From IMG/VR virus record IMGVR_UViG_3300045996_001341, positions 1 to 46,488 of that record: a stretch of 46,488 nucleotides of DNA; one strand, 5' to 3'. The stretch is from a virus. Both the position numbers and the translations under genes were made by a program. Under the pieces are notes generated by a model. It saw only the letters and a list, made by a program, of their open reading frames with translations. It was not told the DNA's origin and made no database searches. This document shows positions 3,203-35,751 of the stretch, one piece after another. Position 1 is the first letter of the stretch, and each line of letters begins with the position of its first letter.

Positions 3203-4808
3203 GTCGCCGCTGGAACAATTCTTCGAATCGAATGAATCTGTGGCCCGTCAGGCCGCCCCCGAAGTCGGCCATGCGGTCGAGGAGACGGCGCGGCAGGTTG
3301 TAGGCCGTGGTGCCAATGCTGTCGGTCTGGGTGTGTCCGGGGCGCAGATGGCAGGCCCGCTGGGAGGTCTGCTGGGCGGGCTGGCCGGTGCCGCTATGCC
3401 GCCGTCCGGTAACCCCGGAATGGACGTCGGTATGGTCGGCGGCGAGGCCCTGGCCGGGATGCTGACCGGCGGCAAGGGCAGACTCATTCAGGGATTCGCG
3501 AAGTTGCTCGGGGCCGGGACCGGCGGTGCGACCGGCGCGATGGTGGATCGACTCTCCAAACCCGACATGACTCACGAAACGCCCTGGGGCCAGATTGGTT
3601 TGTACGTCGGAATTGATGCGCTGGCGCTGGCGGCAGGCGGCGTGATGGGCAAGCTTCTCAGCCCGACGCCCCTGGTGGACGACGTTGCGAAGGTAAAAGG
3701 GGCAACTGGGGTCGATGTCCCGCTCGGGATGGGCGAGAGGTTTGGCGGCCCGATTGAAACCATGAGCCGCTTCTTCTCCCCGGGCCAGGGGGCCGGTGCG
3801 CGGCTGACCAAGATGCAGTCGGATGCGCTGACGAAGGCGACCGACAAGCTGTTGAGCATCGACATCCGGAAGCCGACGCCTGCGGTCGAGGCCGCCGGTA
3901 AGAGCCGCGTCGATCTCAAAGGGGCCGTCGAGGACTGGCGCGAGGCCAACGCTGTGACCGTGCGCGAACCGACCGGAATGGTTGACTCGCGGGGTCGGGA
4001 CCTCTTCCGCGACGTCAAGAAGCTTCCGCCCCGGGAGGACTTCGGGCGCAGCCTCGGCATGGACAAAGAGGAAACGAGTCTGTTCTTCTCGGCCATCGAA
4101 TCGGACACCCAGGGGTTCCTCGACAAGCTTCTGGGCGGGAACAAGGAGACGCGCCTGCGGGGCCTGATTGCCCTGCGCGGCGTCATCAAGGCTGCCGACG
4201 ACACCGACGATACCCTGGGGGCCACCATCGGGGCCGGTCTGGTCACCCGGGTCCTGAAAGAGGGCGGTGCGTTCTCGTGCGATATTGCGTGCGGGCAGCA
4301 GTTCCACAAGGCCCTGTTCGAGAACTTCGGGAAGGACAAGTTGCAGTTGGTGCTGGGCCGGGAAAAGACCGAGGCCCTCGAAACTCTCGCCAACGTGATC
4401 CAGAAGATCGATCCGGCGGCCAAGCTGAACCTGGTCGAGAATGGTGTCTCGCCGGGGCAGCGGGGCGCGTCATACGTCGGCCAGAAGCTTCTGTTCACGA
4501 TGTCTTCGACTGGTGCTGGCATTCTGGGCGGCACCCGGGTCGGATCGGAGCCGCTACTGACCGCCATGGCCGGTGGCGCAATCGGTCTGACGCTGGCCCT
4601 TCCGGCTTACGCCTTTATTGCGCAAACCCTGAGCAACCCGGCCCTGGCCAAGATGTTCCAGGCGTTCGCAGAAAATGGTGACCCTCTCCTCGGTGCCAGA
4701 CTGGTCCGCACAGTCATGTCTGGTCAGCAGTCGCAACGGCAGGAACGGCAGGCCATCGCGCCCACATCGACGCCCCGGACCAAGCTCGAAGAACTCTTCG
4801 CCAAGTGA
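3192..4808 (+). CDS. Gly-rich, membrane-active-looking virion protein (ejection candidate)
   Basis: A 538-residue protein. The TTG start at 3192 is chosen because AGGAGG lies eight bases upstream and the frame overlaps the previous gene by 11 bases; no ATG serves as well. Residues about 35-125 are Gly/Ala-rich helices with GLLGGLAGAA-type segments, followed by a mixed charged region and another hydrophobic stretch near residues 435-480. Such Gly-rich amphipathic segments are typical of podovirus ejection proteins that cross the host envelope. No lytic transglycosylase or other enzyme motif is visible. The role is inferred from composition and position. Confidence 0.7.
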   Translation: MPDKSPLEQFFESNESVARQAAPEVGHAVEETARQVVGRGANAVGLGVSGAQMAGPLGGLLGGLAGAAMPPSGNPGMDVGMVGGEALAGMLTGGKGRLIQGFAKLLGAGTGGATGAMVDRLSKPDMTHETPWGQIGLYVGIDALALAAGGVMGKLLSPTPLVDDVAKVKGATGVDVPLGMGERFGGPIETMSRFFSPGQGAGARLTKMQSDALTKATDKLLSIDIRKPTPAVEAAGKSRVDLKGAVEDWREANAVTVREPTGMVDSRGRDLFRDVKKLPPREDFGRSLGMDKEETSLFFSAIESDTQGFLDKLLGGNKETRLRGLIALRGVIKAADDTDDTLGATIGAGLVTRVLKEGGAFSCDIACGQQFHKALFENFGKDKLQLVLGREKTEALETLANVIQKIDPAAKLNLVENGVSPGQRGASYVGQKLLFTMSSTGAGILGGTRVGSEPLLTAMAGGAIGLTLALPAYAFIAQTLSNPALAKMFQAFAENGDPLLGARLVRTVMSGQQSQRQERQAIAPTSTPRTKLEELFAK

Positions 4809-4825
4809 CCTGGTACAATGTGGGC

Positions 4826-4936
4826 ATGAAAGCCGAGACAAAAGCGCCGTCCCTGGGAGAAGGCTTGCTGGCCCTGGCGGGCCTGGGCCTTATCCTCGTT
4901 CTCTTCTTCCCGTTGCTGATTCTGCTTGTCGGTTAA
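4826..4936 (+). CDS. 36-residue single-pass membrane protein
   Basis: A tiny frame 17 bases after the large virion gene. The N-terminus is polar (MKAETKAPSLGEG) and the rest is one unbroken hydrophobic segment ending LILLVG. It is the last gene of the rightward operon, and its stop overlaps the stop of the leftward ATPase gene in the palindrome TTAA. A TACAAT hexamer at 4814-4819 could be a -10 element. Small hydrophobic proteins like this can act in lysis or membrane targeting, but no family is recognised. Confidence 0.5.
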   Translation: MKAETKAPSLGEGLLALAGLGLILVLFFPLLILLVG

Positions 4937-5754
4937 CGCCATCTCTTCTTCGGTTTGGCCGGTTCGTCCTCCACGGGTTCAAGGACCGGCCTGACCAGCC
5001 CGCCTTCAGTCAGTCCCAGCTTGATGATGTCGTCGGGGCGCTTGGCGTGCCTCAACTCCATCCCCGCGTGCAGCCGCCACCATTCGTCTGCCCGCATGGC
5101 CGGAAACCGCTGGAAGGTGATCAGGCTATCAGGGCTGTCGAACCACTTGGCCGCGCCCCGAAAGTTGTACGGCGAGTAAGGGTCCCAGTTGGCGGCGTCT
5201 TCGCCTTTGGGCGGCTTACCGTAGTGATGCAGCAGGATCAATCCCATCTCGGGGAACTCACTCAGTAAGTTATCCAGGTTCAGGAACAACCTGTTGACAT
5301 CGTTGTTACTGTTCTCGTCGCCCGCCAGGCACTTACTGATCGGGTCGAGGATGACCACCTTTGCGCCGGTGGCCTTGACCTCTTCGCGCAGCTTGGCGAT
5401 CCCCGGGCCGGTATCCAGATAGAAATCCGGCGGCTTGGACAGGAAGAAGAGATTGTCCGGCGGCCTGATCCCCAACTCCTTGTATCTCATCTGGACCCGT
5501 TCCTGGAATCCGTACACACCGAGTTCTTTATCGACGTAGAGGGTCGGCGTCGGCTCGATCACATGATGATTCAGCCCCCATACCTGCCCGCCAACGCCCA
5601 GACTGTGCGCCAGGTCGAGCCCCAGGAAGGTCTTGCCGATCTTCGCGGGGCCGCCCATCAACAACACGCCACCCTTCAATAAAAGGCCCCCACTTATGAT
5701 CGCGGGGGCCTCAGGAAGGGGACGGAGGTAAAGGTCTAATAGCCTCTGGGCCAT
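4933..5754 (-). CDS. RepA/RecA-like AAA ATPase, putative replicative helicase
   Basis: A 273-residue P-loop ATPase. The Walker A motif GGPAKIGKT is at residues 34-42, a Walker B strand (VVILDP) ends at about residue 138, and an ILLHHYGK motif follows. This is the pattern of the plasmid RepA hexameric helicase family (AAA_25), which unwinds DNA 5'-3'. It starts in a TAATG overlap with the diphosphohydrolase-like gene and ends the replication operon that includes the DNA polymerase. No primase domain is fused to it. The Lys/Arg-rich tail (KPKKRWR) may bind nucleic acid. The family assignment is firm; the exact replication role is inferred. Confidence 0.8.
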   Translation of the reverse strand: MAQRLLDLYLRPLPEAPAIISGGLLLKGGVLLMGGPAKIGKTFLGLDLAHSLGVGGQVWGLNHHVIEPTPTLYVDKELGVYGFQERVQMRYKELGIRPPDNLFFLSKPPDFYLDTGPGIAKLREEVKATGAKVVILDPISKCLAGDENSNNDVNRLFLNLDNLLSEFPEMGLILLHHYGKPPKGEDAANWDPYSPYNFRGAAKWFDSPDSLITFQRFPAMRADEWWRLHAGMELRHAKRPDDIIKLGLTEGGLVRPVLEPVEDEPAKPKKRWR

Positions 5755-6182
5755 TAGGCCGCCGGTCGGGACATCAGCAGACGCGCAAGAATCGACCGGG
5801 CGTCACCCGGTTCTTTGGTGGCTTCCTCTTTCTCTGGGGCCTCTTCGGGCCGGTTCTCTTCGATCCAGGCCAGCATGGCCAGGTTGGTAATGGCAGCCTT
5901 GAGATGGTCAATGGGTGTGTCATACTCGCCGTATTTGTCCGGCCCGGTGGTGTTCCCATTGGCATAGTTCATCAGGTGCTCGATGGCGTGGCTGGTGCGG
6001 TCCTTGATGAACACGGGATCGTTGACGCCTTTCTTGTAATTGTTCTCGCCATGGTGTTCGGCGCCCAGGCCCAGCCGCTCGGCAATGTAGCGCACCGCTT
6101 CGACGGGCACCAGGTCATACCGGGGCTTTATCTCGGTGCTCTTTGCCCCGCTGGAAAACTCGGTCATCTTAGCGTTCGCCAT
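5754..6182 (-). CDS. dATP/dGTP diphosphohydrolase N-terminal-like protein
   Basis: A 142-residue protein with the features of the dGTP_diPhyd_N family: an early KPRYDLVP motif, then an AEHHGENNYKKG segment, and His/Asp/Glu-rich helices (HAIEHL, IDHLKAAITNLAM). The family is known from phages and is linked to hydrolysing dATP or dGTP to the monophosphate and pyrophosphate. The C-terminal 35 residues are acidic linker. It lies in the replication operon between an unknown gene and the RepA-like ATPase. No PurZ-type adenylosuccinate synthetase is present, so a full 2-aminoadenine pathway is not supported. Confidence 0.65.
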   Translation of the reverse strand: MANAKMTEFSSGAKSTEIKPRYDLVPVEAVRYIAERLGLGAEHHGENNYKKGVNDPVFIKDRTSHAIEHLMNYANGNTTGPDKYGEYDTPIDHLKAAITNLAMLAWIEENRPEEAPEKEEATKEPGDARSILARLLMSRPAA

Positions 6183-11444: not shown

Positions 11445-11574
11445 TGAGTTCTCCAAGAGGTAAAATTGAACACCAAAATGTTCTTGTCGGGTCACTCTTC
11501 AGCCGCCGCAGTTCTTCCTTGAGATACTGCTTCAAGTCGGCCTCTAAGCTATCCCTGTCGTTGGCGTCTGCCAT
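11425..11574 (-). CDS. 49-residue charged helical protein
   Basis: A short frame whose ATG at 11574 is inside the end of the integrase gene and whose end overlaps the exported-protein start by 20 bases. The first 30 residues form a charged amphipathic helix (LEADLKQYLKEELRRLK). The tight overlaps suggest it is translated, but there is no other support. Confidence 0.4.
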   Translation of the reverse strand: MADANDRDSLEADLKQYLKEELRRLKSDPTRTFWCSILPLGELNDEDAT

Positions 11575-12776
11575 TGTGTCTCCACCCTGGCAGATGAGTC
11601 ACTGCCTGGTTGAGATTCAGTTATTCGAGCAGAAACCTGGTCGAGATAACGTCGCCTGCGTTCGATGTCGGATTCGGTGTAATGGTCGGTCATTTGGTCG
11701 TTGCTGTGGCCCATCAGAGCAATCCGGTCGGCCTTCGACATACCGACCTGGTTGGTGAGTGTTGCGGCGGTTCGCCTGAAGGAATGCCAGGATAACCCCG
11801 GGACACCTATGGCTTTTCCGACCTTTTTCCAGATTCGGTTGTTGGCGTTGTGGGCGTCGATAGGAGTGCCGTTCCGCGAAGCGAATACAGGGGCATCGTC
11901 TGAAGCTTCAGTAGATCGGAGATTTCCGAGAGCCTCTGCGAGATCGTCGCTAATTGGCTGGACACGATTTCTAGCTGTCGTTTTAACTGATCCATACTTT
12001 CCTCGGTAATAATTCTGGATCACCCCGAAGCTTTTCGGCGGCAGCGTCAGATCGTCGTTCGTCAGGTAAACCGTCCGGTCGGTCAGGTTGACCCGGCCCC
12101 ACTTCAGCCCGGTCAGTTCGGCCACATTGAGACTCGTCGTCATCGACATCAGGGCCATGGTCCGGTATGGCTCCGGGGTGATCATGAGCGCCTTCTGGGC
12201 CTGCTCCCAGTTCAGTGCCGGTTTAGGGTGGCGCACCATGGGCGGCATCCGGACCAGCGATGCCGGGTTCTCGCCGGTGAACATGCCCAGGCGCTTGGCG
12301 TGCGACACGATGGCACTGATGGCGTTCTTGGCGTGGGTGGCGGTTTGGACCGACAGCCCCCGGGACATCAGCGACCGGACGACGTTCTGGACGTCGGCCA
12401 CCGACAGTTCGCGCAGTTGCCTCTTGCCGATCAGCGGCAGCAATAACTTAAACATGTACTTGTAGTGCTGCTTGCCGCTCTCCTTCATCGTCCAGACGAT
12501 CTCTGGGTCGAAGTGCCGGGTGACGAACTGGTCGACGCTGATGAGGGTTTGCGGGACCCAGGCTTGCGCGTTCAGGTGATTCAGAACCTGCTCGTCGGCC
12601 TGCCGCTGGGCCGCCTTTTTGGATAGCTTCTGGGGCCCGACCGCCGGGCCCACGATGACACTGGGCCTGGTTTTCTTGATAGTTCCGTCCGGCTGCCTCT
12701 GGTCCTGCCACCACCGGACCCTCCAGAAGTTGCCGTCCTGGTATACATAGCCACGTTGTAGTCGCTTACGGGGCAT
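11544..12776 (-). CDS. int: Tyrosine recombinase (phage integrase)
   Basis: A 410-residue integrase from ATG at 12776; an alternative TTG start at 12830 would add 18 residues and couple to the upstream gene. The N-terminal part has an arm-binding-like beta fold (GYVYQDGNFWRVRWW), then a SAM-like core-binding domain, then the catalytic domain. Visible catalytic elements are the Lys region (SVKTTARNR), HSFRR, GHSNDQM and the HYTE tyrosine. The first catalytic Arg, normally in TGLR, is replaced: the segment reads TSLNVAEL. It would recombine attP at 10136-10184 with a host tRNA-Arg gene. It is about 1.4 kb from attP, separated by the sigma gene group. Confidence 0.9.
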   Translation of the reverse strand: MPRKRLQRGYVYQDGNFWRVRWWQDQRQPDGTIKKTRPSVIVGPAVGPQKLSKKAAQRQADEQVLNHLNAQAWVPQTLISVDQFVTRHFDPEIVWTMKESGKQHYKYMFKLLLPLIGKRQLRELSVADVQNVVRSLMSRGLSVQTATHAKNAISAIVSHAKRLGMFTGENPASLVRMPPMVRHPKPALNWEQAQKALMITPEPYRTMALMSMTTSLNVAELTGLKWGRVNLTDRTVYLTNDDLTLPPKSFGVIQNYYRGKYGSVKTTARNRVQPISDDLAEALGNLRSTEASDDAPVFASRNGTPIDAHNANNRIWKKVGKAIGVPGLSWHSFRRTAATLTNQVGMSKADRIALMGHSNDQMTDHYTESDIERRRRYLDQVSARITESQPGSDSSARVETQWQTPTTGIA

Positions 12777-12826
12777 TGCCTCGTCATTGACCTCCTGTGG
12801 CCAGGGTACCAGGTTCGGCAGCGATG

Positions 12827-13060
12827 TCAAGCGGCTCTCCGCGCCAGCCCAGAGATTTTGTCTGTCTTGCGCCAGTTGCCCACGTACCTGGGAAGTCCGG
12901 CAGCCTCGGCAATGCTGGTGAGCGACATGCCGTTATAGTTGCGAGGAGTCAGCGTCACGTTGCTCAACGTGGATTGCGGAGTTACGACAGTCTTGCGTGC
13001 CGCTGCCCACTCTTCGTCGGACCAGAGAAGGGGAGTTTCCCAGTTGCTATTTCGCGGCAC
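12827..13060 (-). CDS. Small putative DNA-binding protein upstream of int
   Basis: A 77-residue protein from GTG at 13060, seven bases after AGGAA. The C-terminal half (MSLTSIAEAAGLPRYVGNWRKTD) resembles a helix-turn-helix. Its stop overlaps the alternative TTG start of the integrase (TTGA). It could be an excisionase or regulator by position and size, but this is inference. Confidence 0.5.
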   Translation of the reverse strand: MPRNSNWETPLLWSDEEWAAARKTVVTPQSTLSNVTLTPRNYNGMSLTSIAEAAGLPRYVGNWRKTDKISGLARRAA

Positions 13061-27107: not shown

Positions 27108-27539
27108 ATGGCTTCGTTTTTCTACGATACCTTCTGGCGCGATATTCAGAACGGCACGATTGACGTCGACACCGACACCATCAAGGTCGCCCTGGTGACG
27201 TCGAGTTATACGCCCGACCAGGCCACCCACGACAAGTTTGACGACGTGACGAACGAGGTGTCGGCGGCTGGCTACACGGCAGGCGGGGCCACCCTGGCCA
27301 ACATCGCGCTTCAGCTTGACACGACGAACCACTGGTGCGACGTCAACGCCGACGATGTGCAGTGGACCGCGAATATCACCGCCCGGGCGGCAGTTGTTTA
27401 TATGAGCACCGGGACCGCCGCAACGAGCCCCCTGATTGCCTACCTGGACTTCGGTTCGGACCAGACGTCGTCCGGCGGCGGAACGTTCACCCTCCAACTT
27501 AACGCCGAAGGTCTGTGGAGACTTGGTCCGGCGGCCTAA
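27108..27539 (+). CDS. Virion protein of a common phage type
   Basis: A 143-residue protein after a GGAGG site. MASFFYDTFWRDIQNGTIDVDTDTIKVALV-type openings are common among phage structural proteins of unknown exact place. Gly/Thr/Ser-rich beta structure. Confidence 0.65.
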   Translation: MASFFYDTFWRDIQNGTIDVDTDTIKVALVTSSYTPDQATHDKFDDVTNEVSAAGYTAGGATLANIALQLDTTNHWCDVNADDVQWTANITARAAVVYMSTGTAATSPLIAYLDFGSDQTSSGGGTFTLQLNAEGLWRLGPAA

Positions 27540-27550
27540 CGGGAGTACGC

Positions 27551-28141
27551 ATGAAAGTTTTTGGTTTGCTTTTGGTTTCTGCTTTGGCCGGTCTGGCGCA
27601 GATGGTATCGCTCAACGGTCCCGCGACGGCCAAACCGGGCGAGAAGGTTACGCTTACGGTTCAGTTTACCGGAACCGGTAATGCAGCAGCGGCCCAGTGG
27701 GCAGTCGTCGGGCCGGAAGGCCTGGAGATCGCCGCCCCGGTGGCCTCGCCTGCGCTCGTCGCCGCCCAGAAGCTTCTCCACTCGTTCCAGGGGAAGACGC
27801 TGGCGGTCGGGATCAACAGCAACATGCTGCCGACGGGCGCGGCGGCCAGCTACTCGGTCACGCTGCCGGACGGGTTTGCGGACGTCGCCTTTTCGCTCAA
27901 GGACGTAGAGTTGGTTGCGCTGGACGGGACGCCGGTGGCTGCCTCGACCGGGCCCGATGTGGTGATCAAGATGATCCGGCGGGCAGATTTGAATGGTGAC
28001 GGTCGGGTTGACTCGGTCGATCTTCTCATCTCGGTGAACCAGATTCTGGGGATCGCGGAGTGCACCCCGGCGGTCGATCTGAACGGCGACGGCAAGTGCA
28101 GCCTGCTCGACGCCCAGTTGCTGATCAAGGAGGCCCTCTAA
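27551..28141 (+). CDS. Secreted cohesin-like and dockerin-like protein
   Basis: A 196-residue protein from ATG at 27551 after GGGAG. A signal peptide (MKVFGLLLVSALAGLAQ) is followed by a beta-sandwich beginning VSLNGPATAKPGEKVTLTVQF, in the style of cohesin domains, and ends with two dockerin-type calcium loops, DLNGDGRVDSVDLL and DLNGDGKCSLLDAQLL, separated by a Cys pair. Cohesin/dockerin pairs assemble extracellular complexes. Exported, calcium-binding and phage-encoded, it may decorate the cell surface or the virion. Domain calls are inferred from pattern. Confidence 0.65.
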   Translation: MKVFGLLLVSALAGLAQMVSLNGPATAKPGEKVTLTVQFTGTGNAAAAQWAVVGPEGLEIAAPVASPALVAAQKLLHSFQGKTLAVGINSNMLPTGAAASYSVTLPDGFADVAFSLKDVELVALDGTPVAASTGPDVVIKMIRRADLNGDGRVDSVDLLISVNQILGIAECTPAVDLNGDGKCSLLDAQLLIKEAL

Positions 28142-28536
28142 TGGCGATCTTTCTGCTGCGTGACAGCGACCGGGGAACCAACGACTACAAGCAGGGCGAC
28201 GTGGTCGAGGTCTTTACGGACGACGTGCCGGTGCGCCTGCCGCCCTCGGAGCCCTTCTGGATTGTGAAGGTGACCGGGATTGACATCGAGACGGCCCGCC
28301 AGTTCATGGTCAGCGATGACACCAACAAGCGGACCTGGGGGATCAGGTCCAACCGGGTGCCGACGGCCTATGTGAACTTTCTGGTCGGTCATCGGTTCCT
28401 CGGGTTCGGGTCCCCGGAGGACCAACTGAAGTTCGGGGCGGTCGTCCAGGGCGACTTTGTGATCACCTGGACCGAGATGCAGGACTGGCTGATCAACAAG
28501 AACACCAACCGGTCGGCGGCCCAGCAGCGGACCTAA
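28141..28536 (+). CDS. Hypothetical virion protein
   Basis: A 131-residue protein starting on the previous stop (TAATG). It has no signal peptide, looks alpha/beta (RQFMVSDDTNKRTWGIRSN) and ends polar. No family recognised. Confidence 0.65.
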   Translation: MAIFLLRDSDRGTNDYKQGDVVEVFTDDVPVRLPPSEPFWIVKVTGIDIETARQFMVSDDTNKRTWGIRSNRVPTAYVNFLVGHRFLGFGSPEDQLKFGAVVQGDFVITWTEMQDWLINKNTNRSAAQQRT

Positions 28537-28545
28537 TGGCAGCGT

Positions 28546-30030
28546 ATGGCCCAGATTTATGTTGACACCGGGGGCGCAGTCGGCGCGGCAGGAACGATTG
28601 GCGATCCGCACCGTTCGCTGAATGTTGCCGAGGCGACCCTACCGGCGTCTCTGACTGAGCCATACGACGTAATCTGTGACAACACTCTCTCGACAGCCGC
28701 CGATGGCACATCGGTAGACTTCAACGGTTCGACAACCACTTCGACAAACTACGTTCACATCTATACGACCTCGAATGCCCGCCATGCGGGAGTTTGGGAC
28801 ACGTCGAAGTACCGGCTGGAGCAGGGAAGCTCGGGCTATACGATGCGGCTGTACAACCGGTATACGCGGGTGACCGGTTTGCAGATTAAGCAGTCGGGGA
28901 CAGGCGGAAGCAACCATGCCGCTCTGGGGTTCTTCGGCGGCGGCGATCACATCATTGACGCCTGCCTGATCATCACGCTGGGCGGCAGCGGTTCGGCGCA
29001 CGGGCTGTATGTGTTCAGCAATGGCGCGGGGGCAGCCGGGACGGTTAAGAACACGATCTCGTTCGGTTGCACTCAGAGCGCCTTTCATTGCTCCGCCAGC
29101 ACAAACCTTGACAACTGTACCGCTGTGTCGAGTAACTACGGCATCCGGAGAGACGGCGGGACGTGCGTTGCGAGGAACTGCTACGCGGGCGGGAATACGA
29201 CCGGCGACTTCAACGGCACGATAACCAAGACGGCGTGCGCCTCGGCAGACGCCACTGGGACGACGACCGGGATTGCGTTCAGTACCTCCAATTTCGTCAA
29301 CGTCACCCCGGGCAGCGAGGACTTCCATGTGACGTCCGGGACGAGCGTCCCGACGGCAACCCGGCTGGCGACAGCCCTGACCGACATCGACGGCGACAGC
29401 CGTACCGATCCCACCCGGGTCGGTGCCGACGAGTTTGTGTCCGGAGGGACCAACGCGACGGTCAACCTGGCGCTCTCAGAAGGCGAGGCGACCCTCTTTG
29501 AGCCGACCGTGCTGGCGGTTCGGAACGTCAGCGTTGCGCTAAGTCTCATGGAGGGCGAAGGGGCCCTGTTCGACCCCACGGTGGTAGCTGTCAACAACGC
29601 CCTGTTCGAGGCCTCGTTGCTGCTGGGTGCGGGGACCTTGTTCGCGCCGACTGTCCTGACCGGCGGCAATGTCAGCGTTGCCCTGGGGCTGCTGGAGGGC
29701 GAGGGAAGTCTTTTCGCGCCGACCGTGGCTGCCGTCCGGCATGCCTCTGTCACACCGGCCCTTATGGAGGGCCTCGGGGTCATCTACGAGCCCTCAGTCT
29801 CGACCGGCGGCAACATCCTCGTCGTCCTCGACCTGATGACCGGCCAGGGGGTTCTGTTCGAGCCTTCTGCACTTACTGTCAACCACGTAAGCGTCCCGCT
29901 CGACTTACTCGTTGGTCGTGGGCAATTGTTCGATAATATATTTAGTGCCTCTGTTAGTTCTAAGTATGTGCCCTACCCGGTCTTTTACGCGCCCTGGATC
30001 TCGGCGCACCGGTTTGGAAGGAAGCAGTAA
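28546..30030 (+). CDS. Right-handed beta-helix protein with seven C-terminal repeats
   Basis: A 494-residue protein without a signal peptide. Residues 1-300 look like a right-handed parallel beta-helix ending DGDSRTDPTRVGADEF, a common end of such folds. Residues 303-466 (29452-29943) contain seven repeats of about 23 residues with core VALxLLEGEGxLFxPTV. It is probably a tailspike, fibre or adhesion protein; the repeats may form a stalk. Confidence 0.7.
   Translation: MAQIYVDTGGAVGAAGTIGDPHRSLNVAEATLPASLTEPYDVICDNTLSTAADGTSVDFNGSTTTSTNYVHIYTTSNARHAGVWDTSKYRLEQGSSGYTMRLYNRYTRVTGLQIKQSGTGGSNHAALGFFGGGDHIIDACLIITLGGSGSAHGLYVFSNGAGAAGTVKNTISFGCTQSAFHCSASTNLDNCTAVSSNYGIRRDGGTCVARNCYAGGNTTGDFNGTITKTACASADATGTTTGIAFSTSNFVNVTPGSEDFHVTSGTSVPTATRLATALTDIDGDSRTDPTRVGADEFVSGGTNATVNLALSEGEATLFEPTVLAVRNVSVALSLMEGEGALFDPTVVAVNNALFEASLLLGAGTLFAPTVLTGGNVSVALGLLEGEGSLFAPTVAAVRHASVTPALMEGLGVIYEPSVSTGGNILVVLDLMTGQGVLFEPSALTVNHVSVPLDLLVGRGQLFDNIFSASVSSKYVPYPVFYAPWISAHRFGRKQ
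29912..29939 (+). promoter_or_regulatory. Candidate internal promoter before the fibre gene
   Basis: TTGGTC (29912-29917), a 16-base gap and TAATAT (29934-29939) make a good sigma-70-like promoter in an unusually A+T-rich patch near the end of the beta-helix gene. It could express the signal-peptide fibre genes independently. Confidence 0.35.
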
Positions 30031-31881
30031 ATGAAGCAGTTACTTCTATTGTTAGTGCTGGCCCTGCCCGGGTTCGGGCAGTTCTTTGGCGGCGGCAGTA
30101 TTCGTCTGGTCGGCAGCGACCCCACGGGGAACGCCTGCGCGGCCCGCGACGTGGTCAATTACCAGGGAACGCTGTACTCGTGCCAGGCGGGTGTGTTTGC
30201 GGTGGTGGCCGGTTCGGCGGGCCCGCCGATGGACATCAATGCGCTGACAGAGCAGACCAGCCCGGTGTTGGCCAACGACTCGGTGGCGACCTACGATGCG
30301 GCGGCGGCAGGCTTGAGGAAAGTCAAGCTGATCAACCTCCCGTTCTTGGTCAAAGCGAACAACCTGAGCGACCTGGCCAATGCGGCGACCGCCCGAACTA
30401 ACCTCGGCCTTGGGAACGTGACCAACGATGCACAGTTGAAGGCGGCAAGTAATCTGTCCGACCTGGCGAACGCCACCACGGCCCGCGACAACCTCGGGGT
30501 CGAGATCGGGGTCGATGTGCAGGCGTATCATGCCTACCTGGCCGACCTCGCGGCCCTGACGGCCACCAACGGGTACGTCCTCATGTTCAACGGGACGACA
30601 GTGGTTCGGGTCGAGATTCCGGACTGCGACGGCACGAGCGAGAAGCTGTCGTTCACGCAGGCGACCAGGACGTTTGCTTGCACGACCGACCAGACGGGCG
30701 GCGGCGGTGGAGCGACCGACTACGAGATCTCGGGCACCGGCACGGCCACCCTGGCCATCGCGGCTGGCTCGGTCGATATCAACGGGACGTATTACGGGCA
30801 CTCAGCCGCAACCGTCGAGATCACGGCAGGGACTTCGACCGGCACAGCGAAGGTCTATGTGGACCCGAACGGAGTCATGACGGTCATCGTGCCGACCGGC
30901 GTGACGACGACCTGCACCAACTGCACGTCAGCCGAGAGCGCCTCGCCTGCGTTCCCCGGCGGCAGCATCAAGCCGATTGCCAACGTGACGATCAGCTACC
31001 CGGGGTCGGGCACGAGCATCTGGAACACATCGACAGCCCAAAAGGGCACCTACTCGTTGCGGGCATTCGAACCCAGCACCGGCCTCGAATGGACCGACAG
31101 CAGCAAGGGTGCCATGAAGATCGACAGCACGGTGCTGACGACCAGCGGCGACCATGTGGTTGCCGGATCGCTCGATCACTCGGCATCGACGCGGACCAAG
31201 CCCTACCGGCAGGTGGCCAATGCGGCAGCCAGGACGACGCCCTGTACGGCGTACGAACGGGTTCTTCAGATTGACACCAACGTGGTTTATGGGTGCGCGG
31301 CAGACGGTTTGTCGTGGGCGGCAGACGGCGGCGGTGCCAGCGGCTCGATGCTCCACAACTACTACTTCCCGGCTGGCAGTGTGTACTCTTCGACGTCGTC
31401 TTACGGCGCAGGATGGGGCGCTCCGTCATCGGCTGGCGCGATTGCGACCACGACGGCGTCGGGAGCGATCAGGTACGCCTCGATGCTGTTCGAGGATGGC
31501 GTTGCAACGCGCTCGGCCTCGCTGGCGTTCCGGCTGCCGGATAACTGGGACGATTCCAAGGACGTTTCGCTTGCGCTCGACTGGGCCAACGGATCGGGGT
31601 CCGGGACCGGGATTTTTGTCTCGATCTCGACCGGCTGCACGTCGCCCGGTGATGCCGCCATCCCATCGTTCAATACCTCGCAAGATGCCACGCTGACTCC
31701 TATCTCTTCGTCCAACTGGGGCACTCACACAGTCAGCACGCTGACTGCAACCGGATGCCTGGCTGGCGACCGCATGTTCATCCTTGTCACCCGCGATCCA
31801 AACAACGTGGCCGATGATTTCGCGGGCAACATGCTCGTTCTGGGAGCAACCGTAAAAATCTATGAAGACATTACTCAGTAG
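30031..31881 (+). CDS. Tail-fibre-like protein with signal peptide
   Basis: A 616-residue protein. MKQLLLLLVLALPGFGQ is a clear Sec signal peptide. The NLSDLANAATARTNLGLG-type motif occurs twice near residues 110-155 (second copy NLSDLANATTARDNLGV), a hallmark of phage tail fibres. Ten cysteines, an even number, may form disulphides outside the cytoplasm. The C-terminal part is beta-rich and may be the receptor-binding tip. A signal peptide on a fibre is unusual. Family evidence is good; the export is predicted. Confidence 0.75.
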   Translation: MKQLLLLLVLALPGFGQFFGGGSIRLVGSDPTGNACAARDVVNYQGTLYSCQAGVFAVVAGSAGPPMDINALTEQTSPVLANDSVATYDAAAAGLRKVKLINLPFLVKANNLSDLANAATARTNLGLGNVTNDAQLKAASNLSDLANATTARDNLGVEIGVDVQAYHAYLADLAALTATNGYVLMFNGTTVVRVEIPDCDGTSEKLSFTQATRTFACTTDQTGGGGGATDYEISGTGTATLAIAAGSVDINGTYYGHSAATVEITAGTSTGTAKVYVDPNGVMTVIVPTGVTTTCTNCTSAESASPAFPGGSIKPIANVTISYPGSGTSIWNTSTAQKGTYSLRAFEPSTGLEWTDSSKGAMKIDSTVLTTSGDHVVAGSLDHSASTRTKPYRQVANAAARTTPCTAYERVLQIDTNVVYGCAADGLSWAADGGGASGSMLHNYYFPAGSVYSSTSSYGAGWGAPSSAGAIATTTASGAIRYASMLFEDGVATRSASLAFRLPDNWDDSKDVSLALDWANGSGSGTGIFVSISTGCTSPGDAAIPSFNTSQDATLTPISSSNWGTHTVSTLTATGCLAGDRMFILVTRDPNNVADDFAGNMLVLGATVKIYEDITQ

Positions 31882-34024
31882 CCTCGTTCTCGCGATTGCT
31901 CTGTCGAGCCAGAGCGCATATCACACCATCTCGGTGTGCGCCTCGGGGTGCGACTATACGGACGCCGATACGGCAGTCGATGCGGCGGCTGCCTACCAGA
32001 CCGCCACGTCCTGCATCCCGGTGTTTGTGAACCTGGCGGCTGGCGAGACGTTCGGGCGGATCACGCTGCCCAGCAAGCCGCACTCGTCGTGCGGATGGCC
32101 GGTGTACGTGCAGTCGTCCCAAATCAGTTCGCTGGCCGAAGGCGTCAGGGTCGGCCCCGGCGACGAGGTCTACATGGCCGAGGTGAGGGCCACTTCCGCC
32201 AGCGGGCTCGATGCTGTGATCATCGCGGCGTCTGGTTCGCAGTCTGATAACTGGGTGATCAGAGGTCTGGAGGTCACCGGATCGAATCAGGACTACGGGA
32301 TTTTGTTTGATGATGCGGCGTCAGGCTTGCACAAGAACATCATCGTCGACCGGGTGTACATGCACGCCGATAGCGATGCCGACGCCCCGTGGGATAACTG
32401 CATTGCCCTACTCGCGGACAAGTTCAGGATCACCAACAGCCACTTTGGCAACTGCGCCGCCAGCGTATCAGGGAACAACAAAGAATCGAAAGGGATTCTG
32501 ATCTCGGCAGGGCGGTCTGGCCTGGTCCGGAACAATCTGATTCAGTCTTACTCGATTGGTTCGCTGGTCGGCGGCGGCTCTGTCGCCCACATCGAAACTG
32601 GCCACCTTCAGAGTGACTTGCAGTTTCAAGGTAACTATTACACACGGCTAATCCGCTGGTGGCACCGTGAAGGTACCGCACCGCCGAGTGTCGGCAATGG
32701 CTGCTATGACGGCCAGTATTACAAGAACACGTCGGATGCGAACGATTCGCGGGTGTGCGTCGGGAGCGTCTGGACGGTGACCAGCGAGAGCCGCACATCG
32801 ATGTCCACCGGCCCGAAGAACGGGTTCGAGTTGAAGGCTGCGGCACGAGTTGTGGCCGAAGGCAACGTGTTCGAGAACTGCTGGCTGGATACCGCGAATC
32901 AGTCGCAACGGTGCGCCGTCATCATCATGAATCTGTCGCCCAACGACTACTGGAGCACGATCAAGAATGTGACCTTCAGATACAACCGGGCCAAGAAGTA
33001 CGAGGCCTCGTGGGTTCTCGGTTTGCCGATTGCCGACTATGTGTTCAACGCGCACCACAGGAACATCACAATCACGAACAACCTTCTGACCAATGCCCGC
33101 AATGCGCTGCTGGCCTATAGCAACACCGGCGGCGGAGTCGATGGTTCGGCAACCGGCGGCACGGTGACCCAGAAGGTCAAAGAGTTATTCATCGGGCACA
33201 ACACCTATGCGATTGACGACAACACGGTGCTCGGGTCACAGGTCACCGGGAGCACCTACACGCTCGATGTGAGTTCGACCGGAGTAATCGACGGGACGCT
33301 CGAAATCGTCCAGCACTCGAACATCCTGCCGTTCTATGCGCGGGGTGTGTCGCGCTCGGGGGCGCAGGCTGGTCTGTGTCTGCACGCGCAGGCGAACATT
33401 GGCGTTGTGAGCCCGGTGGTGACGAACCTATCTGGCATCGGCTCGGTTCACTGGCGGAATGACCTGTACGTCAACAACTACATCTCTTCCTACGCCGCCC
33501 CCACCATCGATGACGCCATGTCGGACATCTGTTCCGGCAGCCATACCAAGTTCCGGTCGCCGTCCACTGGTCGCAACCCGTCCATGTGGAGCGGCTACAA
33601 CACCAACGCTGACGTGTTCACCGACGCCGCTGGCGACAACTTCAGGCCGCTCTCGGGCGTCCTGTCGGCAACCTACGGGCTCGACGGCGGGCCCATCGGA
33701 GCAGACATCGATGCGGTCGAGGTGGCCACCGCGCACACCGAAGCCGGGACGCATAATCCATGGTTCGATATGTCCATCAGGAAGGTCGTTCCGACGTCCG
33801 ACGGTGCCGAGATCCACATCGTCAAGCCCACGAGCGGCTCTTGCACGGTGACCGTGGACACCAATCGCGCCTTCGACAGCGACCTCGGGACCGACTCGCC
33901 GGTAACCTCGGGCCGGACTCTTGTGGTGACCGTGTCGGGGCTCAATGCGAAGACGGCCTACTACGCCAAGGTGGACTGCGACGGCTACCCCCGCGAGACA
34001 GATATGTGGATCACCCTTCCGTGA
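31862..34024 (+). CDS. Tailspike-like parallel beta-helix protein with signal peptide
   Basis: A 720-residue protein beginning MKTLLSSLVLAIALSSQSAY, a Sec-type signal peptide, overlapping the previous gene by 20 bases. The long middle region is right-handed beta-helix-like (repeated N/G/I-rich turns, NITITNNLLTNARNALL), and the end (residues about 635-720) is an FN3-like sandwich. Fourteen cysteines, an even number. It could cleave or bind surface polysaccharide; no catalytic triad can be confirmed by eye. The terminase begins in its stop codon. Confidence 0.7.
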   Translation: MKTLLSSLVLAIALSSQSAYHTISVCASGCDYTDADTAVDAAAAYQTATSCIPVFVNLAAGETFGRITLPSKPHSSCGWPVYVQSSQISSLAEGVRVGPGDEVYMAEVRATSASGLDAVIIAASGSQSDNWVIRGLEVTGSNQDYGILFDDAASGLHKNIIVDRVYMHADSDADAPWDNCIALLADKFRITNSHFGNCAASVSGNNKESKGILISAGRSGLVRNNLIQSYSIGSLVGGGSVAHIETGHLQSDLQFQGNYYTRLIRWWHREGTAPPSVGNGCYDGQYYKNTSDANDSRVCVGSVWTVTSESRTSMSTGPKNGFELKAAARVVAEGNVFENCWLDTANQSQRCAVIIMNLSPNDYWSTIKNVTFRYNRAKKYEASWVLGLPIADYVFNAHHRNITITNNLLTNARNALLAYSNTGGGVDGSATGGTVTQKVKELFIGHNTYAIDDNTVLGSQVTGSTYTLDVSSTGVIDGTLEIVQHSNILPFYARGVSRSGAQAGLCLHAQANIGVVSPVVTNLSGIGSVHWRNDLYVNNYISSYAAPTIDDAMSDICSGSHTKFRSPSTGRNPSMWSGYNTNADVFTDAAGDNFRPLSGVLSATYGLDGGPIGADIDAVEVATAHTEAGTHNPWFDMSIRKVVPTSDGAEIHIVKPTSGSCTVTVDTNRAFDSDLGTDSPVTSGRTLVVTVSGLNAKTAYYAKVDCDGYPRETDMWITLP

Positions 34025-35751
34025 CAGAGCGCGAGATACAGCTTCGTAAGGAGGGCCGCCACAAGGCCCGCACCGACCTAATGTGGCTCTGCCACAACAT
34101 TCTCGACATGAAGAAGATCGTGCCGCATGTTCACGGGCCGATCATTCAGACCCTCCAGACCTTTGACAGGTGGCAAGGCGAGGACAAGTGGAACGCGACC
34201 ACCAAGTCGTTTTTCTACGAGCCCATCTCGCCGGACCCGGTCGATGTGATCCAGGACGGAGACTTGCGGCGCAGGCTGATCCTGGCCCCACGCGGCTGGT
34301 ACAAGACCTCGCTGAACGTGATCGCGCACACGATCCAGTGGCTGCTGAACTATCCCGACGCCACCATCCTGATCATGCACGCCAGCCAGGAGACAGCAGA
34401 GCAGATGTTGGGTCTGGTCAAGCACCACTTTCACCACAACAAGGTGATGCGGTACTTCTTTCCGGAGTTCTGTGCCCCAGAGAAGTCGAAAGAGTTCGGG
34501 ACCCAGAGCCAGTTCAACATTCCGGCTCGGCGGCGGTACACGACCGCCCCCAGTGTCTCAGTGGCCGGTATCGAGTCGGTGCGAACGGGTATGCACTACC
34601 ACGTCATCAAGTTCACCGACATCGTTGATGTCAAGAATTCGACGACCAAGGAACAGTGCGAAAAGATTATCTATGCGTACGGCATGGCCAGGAACCTGCT
34701 CATCGGGCCCAGTTACTGGATCGATGTCGAGGGGACGCGGTATAACTTCTCGGATCTCTATGGCCGAATCGTGGACGAATGGGAAGCGGTTGAAAAACCC
34801 GGCTCGACCAAGAAGCACACCTTCAAGTGCTTCACCATGGGCTGCTTCAAGAAGGACGTGCGCGGGACCAAGGAGCAGGAAGAGTACACCCCGGATGAAC
34901 TCTCGATGCCGTACCTGCTGGACGCCGACGGCAACCCCATCAGCCGCTTTCCCGAAGAGTTCCCGTACGAGGCCCTGATCAACCTGCGCGACGACCCGGT
35001 GACCGGTGAGCAACTCTTTGCCTCGCAGCAATTAAACAACCCGGTCGAAACCGAGAACGTCATCTTCGGAATCAAGGACATCAAATGGAAGACCGAGGAC
35101 GAACTCAAGAAAATCCCGATCCTCTACTACCAGACCACCGTTGACCTGGCCGAGACGGCCAACAAGCGGTCGGACTATACGGCCATCACGACCGTTGGCG
35201 TCGACCGGATGAACCGCCGGTACGTTGTAGACATCCGCCACGGGAAGTTCCTCCCCGACCGGATTGTCGATCACATCTTCGACGTCCAGCAGAAATGGCG
35301 ACCGGTCAAAATCAAGGTCGAAGAAACGGGCTTCACCCGGGGCCTCAAGCCGACCATCGACCGGCGGATTCAGATGACCGGCATCCGGCCCAACTTCGAC
35401 TGGCTCCAGCGGGACACCCAAATCGCCAAAGTGGACCGGATCATGTCGCTTCAGCCGTGGTTTCGGAACGGCCTTATCTTCTTCGCCTCGGCCCTGGACG
35501 AGCACGTCAGGGAACAAATCAAGCACGAGCTTACCCGGTTCCCCAAATACATGCACGACGACATACTCGATACCCTGGCCGACCAGTTCCAGGGCGAACA
35601 GGTCTTCGGGCCGGTCAAAGAGGAGCCCTCTATGCAGCAGATGCTTCTCTTCGCCCGCAACCACATGCTGACTAAGATGGAAGAGCACAGCCGTATTTAC
35701 GGCACTTCGGACGAACAATCTAACTCTGCGTGGTCCGGACTGGGCCAGTAA
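34021..35751 (+). CDS. terL: Terminase large subunit
   Basis: A 576-residue packaging motor from GTG at 34021, overlapping the upstream stop (GTGA). The ATPase domain has an atypical Walker A (APRGWYKTS, about residues 89-97) after RLIL and an acidic strand (VIKFTDIVD). The nuclease domain is RNase H-like: TTVDLAET, then VEETGF, then HDDILDTLADQF give the metal-binding acids. Together they cut concatemers and drive DNA into the capsid through the portal encoded next. No recognisable small subunit adjoins it. Confidence 0.9.
   Translation: MTEREIQLRKEGRHKARTDLMWLCHNILDMKKIVPHVHGPIIQTLQTFDRWQGEDKWNATTKSFFYEPISPDPVDVIQDGDLRRRLILAPRGWYKTSLNVIAHTIQWLLNYPDATILIMHASQETAEQMLGLVKHHFHHNKVMRYFFPEFCAPEKSKEFGTQSQFNIPARRRYTTAPSVSVAGIESVRTGMHYHVIKFTDIVDVKNSTTKEQCEKIIYAYGMARNLLIGPSYWIDVEGTRYNFSDLYGRIVDEWEAVEKPGSTKKHTFKCFTMGCFKKDVRGTKEQEEYTPDELSMPYLLDADGNPISRFPEEFPYEALINLRDDPVTGEQLFASQQLNNPVETENVIFGIKDIKWKTEDELKKIPILYYQTTVDLAETANKRSDYTAITTVGVDRMNRRYVVDIRHGKFLPDRIVDHIFDVQQKWRPVKIKVEETGFTRGLKPTIDRRIQMTGIRPNFDWLQRDTQIAKVDRIMSLQPWFRNGLIFFASALDEHVREQIKHELTRFPKYMHDDILDTLADQFQGEQVFGPVKEEPSMQQMLLFARNHMLTKMEEHSRIYGTSDEQSNSAWSGLGQ

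Follow-up and report, generated by a model that had tools for sequence, protein, structure and literature searches.

We identified, in the late operon of a phage that is podovirus-like, a gene whose predicted product combines a Sec-type signal peptide, a diverged cohesin-like domain and a type I dockerin domain on a single chain. That a late phage protein combines an export signal with both a cohesin-like domain and a dockerin appears to be new; cohesin adaptors in bacteria and dockerins in viral proteins are already known. Keyword searches of the open-access literature found no description of a phage protein with cohesin and dockerin on one exported chain. As read from the sequence, the firm elements of this finding are the domain layout, the late-operon position, the signal peptides of two neighbours and the existence of a diverged homologue in a phage of unrelated type. 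With regard to function, we tentatively propose that the protein is an exported connector with one plug and one socket, similar to ScaC or the planctosome adaptor (see below), which may act at the surface of the infected cell and be deployed with its fibre-like, signal peptide-containing neighbours.

The window, i.e., the whole stretch of DNA analyzed (46,488 nucleotides), is a single virus record, IMGVR_UViG_3300045996_001341. A 127-bp exact direct repeat is present at both ends, and because of these terminal repeats the genome of ~46.4 kb is probably complete. It codes for an SU10-type portal, an N4-gp56-type capsid protein, a terminase, a family A DNA polymerase and an integrase-family recombinase; no Rfam families or tRNA genes were found in the window. 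The recombinase (window 11544-12830, minus strand; Phage_integrase, PF00589, E 1.1e-16) has a 51% identical counterpart in G001, one of the related phage records described below, and its presence suggests that the phage may be temperate. The gene of interest and its late neighbours are arranged as follows:

27108..27539 (+), upstream neighbour, phage family phrog_644 (E 3.7e-38)
27541..27545 (+), probable ribosome-binding site GGGAG, immediately past the phrog_644 stop codon (from the sequence)
27551..28141 (+), complete ORF of 196 aa (ATG at 27551, TAA at 28139-28141) with signal peptide, cohesin-like domain and dockerin
27551..27598 (+), Sec-type signal peptide MKVFGLLLVSALAGLA, residues 1-16, predicted cleavage before Q17 (rule-based scan; low-confidence N-terminus in the model)
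27599..27973 (+), cohesin-like beta-sandwich, residues 17-141 (intermediate-sequence link, model and Foldseek; sub-threshold in the direct Pfam match)
27983..28138 (+), dockerin type I domain, residues 145-196 (Pfam PF00404)
27986..28021 (+), calcium loop 1 DLNGDGRVDSVD, D146LNGDGRVDSVD157, residues 146-157, complete
28076..28111 (+), calcium loop 2 DLNGDGKCSLLD, D176LNGDGKCSLLD187, residues 176-187, complete
28139..28142 (+), TAATG overlap of the dockerin gene stop and the start of the next gene (from the sequence)
28141..28536 (+), downstream neighbour, 131 aa, no family match in family scans and no signal peptide by the Sec rule
28546..30030 (+), 494 aa, repeats in the C-terminal part, judged fibre-like by eye, neither signal peptide nor family match
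30031..31881 (+), 616-aa tail-fibre-like protein (phrog_2282, tail fiber, E 6.1e-5) with signal peptide MKQLLLLLVLALPGFG^Q (Sec rule)
31862..34024 (+), 720-aa protein with signal peptide (Sec rule), beta-helix-like by eye, no family match
33760..35751 (+), terminase large subunit (phrog_38, E 4e-57), true start probably further downstream

Cohesin-dockerin pairs form some of the tightest protein contacts in nature, and bacteria and archaea are known to use them outside cellulosomes as well. The dockerin assignment is direct: PF00404 (Dockerin_1) matched residues 145-194 with 42.1 bits (E 9.8e-11), compared to a Pfam gathering cut-off of 22.9. The domain contains duplicated loop-helix segments, with loops at residues 146-157 and 176-187 and model helices at residues 155-165 and 185-195, and shuffling the mature protein 200,000 times never produced two complete calcium loops. 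Both the signal peptide and the two dockerin-type calcium loops that a sequence-only reading of this gene had claimed were thus recovered, the former as a rule-based prediction.

The N-terminal domain was more difficult to assign. Its direct score against PF00963 (Cohesin) was 13.5 bits (E 0.084; 12.1 bits in another scan), compared to a gathering cut-off of 24.1, and because this score is sub-threshold we designate the domain cohesin-like rather than cohesin. Profile-profile comparison with 38 cohesins gave a score of 22.4 (the maximum for 200 column shuffles was 16.0), but CARDB, an unrelated sandwich family, reached 23.2 on a stretch of 31 columns, and the scores of true cohesins ranged from 34 to 107, so that this comparison alone is not decisive; hhalign was dropped as decisive proof since it did not separate cohesin from CARDB. 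Stronger support comes from homology to cohesins that is detectable at the sequence level through intermediates. A model built from the protein and its phage homologue (described below) had a single match at E<=1e-6 across 300 Bacillota genomes, with an E of 3.7e-7 that becomes roughly 1e-4 when the 300 genomes are allowed for. This match, L140, is a tandem-cohesin protein with two Pfam-grade cohesins (Pfam Cohesin, 95.3 bits), and the same model without the signal peptide matched both of them (36.0 bits, E 1.7e-9). PKD and CARDB control loci remained below 10 bits, as did most other cohesin loci, the latter placing the domain at a considerable distance from typical cohesins.

Structure prediction points in the same direction. 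AlphaFold2 gave a pLDDT of 87.7 and a pTM of 0.72 on a 14-row alignment and a pLDDT of 36 without an alignment. For the alignment-guided model, Foldseek ranked non-cellulosomal and cellulosomal cohesins on top: ten of the top eleven PDB matches were cohesin or cohesin-like and one was a CLIPPER adhesin domain, with E down to 5.9e-8. Since 7 of the 14 rows carry cohesins and these rows guided the model, it indicates compatibility with a cohesin fold and not an independent discovery of it. The best structural matches were the non-cellulosomal cohesins 2xdh of Archaeoglobus fulgidus and 2jh2, 2w1n and 2vo8 from Clostridium perfringens glycoside hydrolases; they differ in being only 10-14% identical, and the C. 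perfringens modules are parts of enzymes. The cohesin-like sandwich proposed from the sequence alone is backed by the intermediate link and compatible with the model and its Foldseek matches, although it missed the Pfam cohesin cut-off; of the two profile searches suggested at that time, the dockerin search succeeded above cut-off and the direct cohesin match fell below. The domain is too diverged for its binding face to be predicted.

The late genes lie on the plus strand, and the dockerin gene begins 11 nt past the phrog_644 gene; at its other end, the stop codon overlaps the next start codon and the GGAGG of the next gene (28141-28536) sits within the dockerin gene. Its GC content (0.631) and GC3 (0.787) are similar to those of the late neighbours. 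Placement in a phage late operon, another claim of the sequence-only reading, is borne out by the strand run, the 11-nt spacing and the TAATG overlap, and the exported fibre proteins that it placed alongside correspond to the fibre-like neighbours at 30031-31881 and 31862-34024 with predicted signal peptides. Using a simple Sec rule, we called signal peptides in 3 of 30 listed genes (mostly late, plus strand), all of them among the six genes that precede the terminase (p ~0.005, a value that is indicative only because the list and the slot were drawn after the pattern was seen). The strong Sec signal peptides of the two neighbours are unexpected for virion parts assembled in the cytoplasm. In the protein at 28546-30030, the C-terminal half is built from repeats with the pattern LxxGxGxLFxPTVxxxxxxSVxL.

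A full-length homologue was detected in two further virus records, L032 and L033 (IMGVR_UViG_3300027826_000052 and 3300005533_000107), with 27% identity over 177 aa (E 8e-10); as both carry an identical copy of the protein, they count as one independent occurrence. Similar to the window protein, it has a signal peptide, the same N-terminal domain and a dockerin loop. It differs in lying in a phage with an unrelated type of terminase (phrog_2/phrog_5902), in having only one complete calcium loop and in a dockerin score below the Pfam cut-off. This homologue was recovered with a dockerin-led alignment; single-sequence scans of IMG/VR, phages and plasmids found no full-length relative, and two further scans found no additional copies. 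One candidate, G006:C137, was rejected as a full-length relative, the match being a tandem dockerin. The other signal peptide-like protein of L032 (positions 4498-6168) has a sub-threshold cohesin match (13.2 bits) at about residues 437-539. The question of phage relatives raised by the sequence-only reading was thus answered by the L032/L033 homologue, and the family, with a dockerin found by profile search, is not limited to bacteria. Because a diverged copy occurs in an unrelated phage, viruses seem to export such connector proteins.

These observations bear on the possibility that the gene is a passenger, that is, a captured host gene for a secreted cohesin-dockerin protein that benefits the host cell, if anything, and not the particle, like other accessory genes carried by phages. 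Proteins with this layout occur in bacteria, the related phage records yielded no dockerin, and the recombinase suggests that the phage may be temperate, all of which would fit capture of a host gene. However, the base composition agrees with that of the late genes, the overlap of stop and start codons ties the gene into the late operon, and an unrelated phage also has a full-length homologue near its terminase. We consider this reading somewhat unlikely.

We further examined G001 to G005, phage records related via portal, capsid or terminase (G001 and G004 are ~50 kb and the rest are fragments of 4-17 kb). No dockerin was found in these two long and three fragmentary records by a profile search that could miss degenerate copies. 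Direct inspection of the counterpart region in G001 revealed large signal peptide-containing proteins in place of the dockerin gene: five consecutive large genes, each with a signal peptide (L008:1415-13117, minus strand, IMGVR_UViG_3300045996_000554). Two proteins in this run had domain matches, one to Phage_depo_C (depolymerase C-terminal, E 2.7e-7) and one to Beta_helix (E 5.6e-9). G004 has a fibre-like protein with a signal peptide and, in the corresponding region, a 184-aa Ig protein (L013:3730-4284; Big_7, E 3.6e-8) whose N-terminus is leader-like by eye and unflagged by the rule. The same Sec rule called no signal peptide in any of 19 late proteins of Tunturi_3.

The dockerin protein looks accessory and not part of the core virion architecture, because it carries the sole dockerin in the genome by family-profile search and none was found in the five related records. 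This weighs on the idea of a virion component that decorates or joins tail fibres or spikes, its signal peptide serving an unusual extracytoplasmic assembly or attachment after lysis. The gene does adjoin fibre-like genes, two of which also encode signal peptides, but no dockerin was detected in relatives with the portal, capsid and terminase genes in common, Sec export would part the protein from cytoplasmic assembly, and none of the other phage proteins contains a potential partner domain that scores above threshold, which makes such a role improbable. The proposal of the sequence-only reading that a virion assembly is built on cohesin-dockerin contacts is likewise disfavored by the lone dockerin, the lack of any cohesin above cut-off, the failure to detect a dockerin in the five related records (two long, three fragments) and the single intact loop of the homologue.

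No cohesin above cut-off was found in the phage genome either. Since a second dockerin is absent, the partner of the protein probably lies outside the phage genome. The same absence, together with the location of both halves on a single polypeptide, could suggest a self-complementary module, as the sequence-only reading proposed, in which each dockerin would engage the cohesin-like domain of a neighbouring copy to form surface chains or dimers, or in which the two would form an intramolecular clamp. This is unlikely, as the modules of published adaptors reportedly bind proteins other than themselves (PMC5301203, PMC6461901) and the homologue has a single complete calcium loop.

The proposed connector, in turn, has several known counterparts. 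ScaC of Ruminococcus flavefaciens has a single cohesin and acts as an adaptor (PMC5301203); like the proposed connector, it is a non-catalytic chain whose single cohesin module would link binding partners, but it is bacterial and functions in a cellulosome with many dockerin enzymes, whereas the phage genome has no enzyme or scaffoldin partner and its cohesin-like domain is much diverged. The planctosome adaptor proposed for freshwater Planctomycetes (PMC6461901) likewise unites a signal peptide with a dockerin and a cohesin in a single polypeptide and is non-cellulosomal; it differs in an extra hyaline-repeat domain and in coming from a bacterium with matching peptidases, and its function is also only proposed. 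Archaeal scaffoldin-like proteins contain a dockerin and several cohesins (PMC9012536). We also found compact cohesin-dockerin proteins, with both domains above Pfam cut-offs, in rumen/gut Clostridia (L073 and L075). They share a signal peptide-like start, one cohesin and one dockerin in frames of about 226-264 aa, but are chromosomal, have a Pfam-grade cohesin and are only about 20% identical to the window protein. Compared to the adaptor scaffoldins, the layout of the phage protein fits, but its domain is cohesin-like (not Pfam-grade), its signal peptide is rule-based and matching cohesin/dockerin partners above cut-off were not found in the phage genome.

Other viral dockerins were also detected. 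Those of L031 (gut-phage-like) and L037 have no cohesin domain by Pfam scan, and a BFVD entry, 'Dockerin type 1 [Myoviridae sp. ctCL221]', is a viral dockerin with a weak match (E 2.3e-3). The L037 protein (L037:2182-3219) is a lysin of a viral contig with GH25, dockerin and LysM on a single chain, and the L031 dockerin protein (L031:1865-2386) is encoded a short distance upstream of a gene for a large fibre-like protein on a viral contig of 126 kb. Similar proteins hint that the host of the phage may belong to Acidobacteriota; no match was found in three Granulicella plasmids and one Tunturiibacter phage. Gln at position +1 of the signal peptide was not discriminating as a host marker (15% vs 12%).

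In favor of the connector we counted the domains with the export signal, the late-operon position, the late-like GC content, the clustering of signal peptides, the signal peptide genes of G001 and G004, the bacterial and published adaptor precedents and the lack of a second dockerin, which points to an outside partner; against it, the homologue with one complete calcium loop, a cohesin-like domain too diverged for its binding face to be predicted, and export that relies on a simple rule and assumed late Sec activity. If the connector reading holds, the protein would leave via the host Sec system late in infection, fold with calcium outside the cytoplasm and bridge a host surface protein that contains a dockerin or a cohesin to another extracellular protein. 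The infected cell surface would thereby be remodelled, for example by tethering the exported fibre-like proteins of the phage there or by covering receptors, and the function would be accessory and lineage-specific and not that of the core particle. A broader version, in which some phages export fibre and beta-helix proteins via Sec and assemble them on the infected cell by a cohesin-dockerin connector as a virus-encoded analogue of the cellulosome type, appears very unlikely at present. The occurrence in two unrelated phages of such a protein, alongside large late proteins with signal peptides, makes it a testable question whether tailed phages may rebuild the exterior of the infected cell before lysis.
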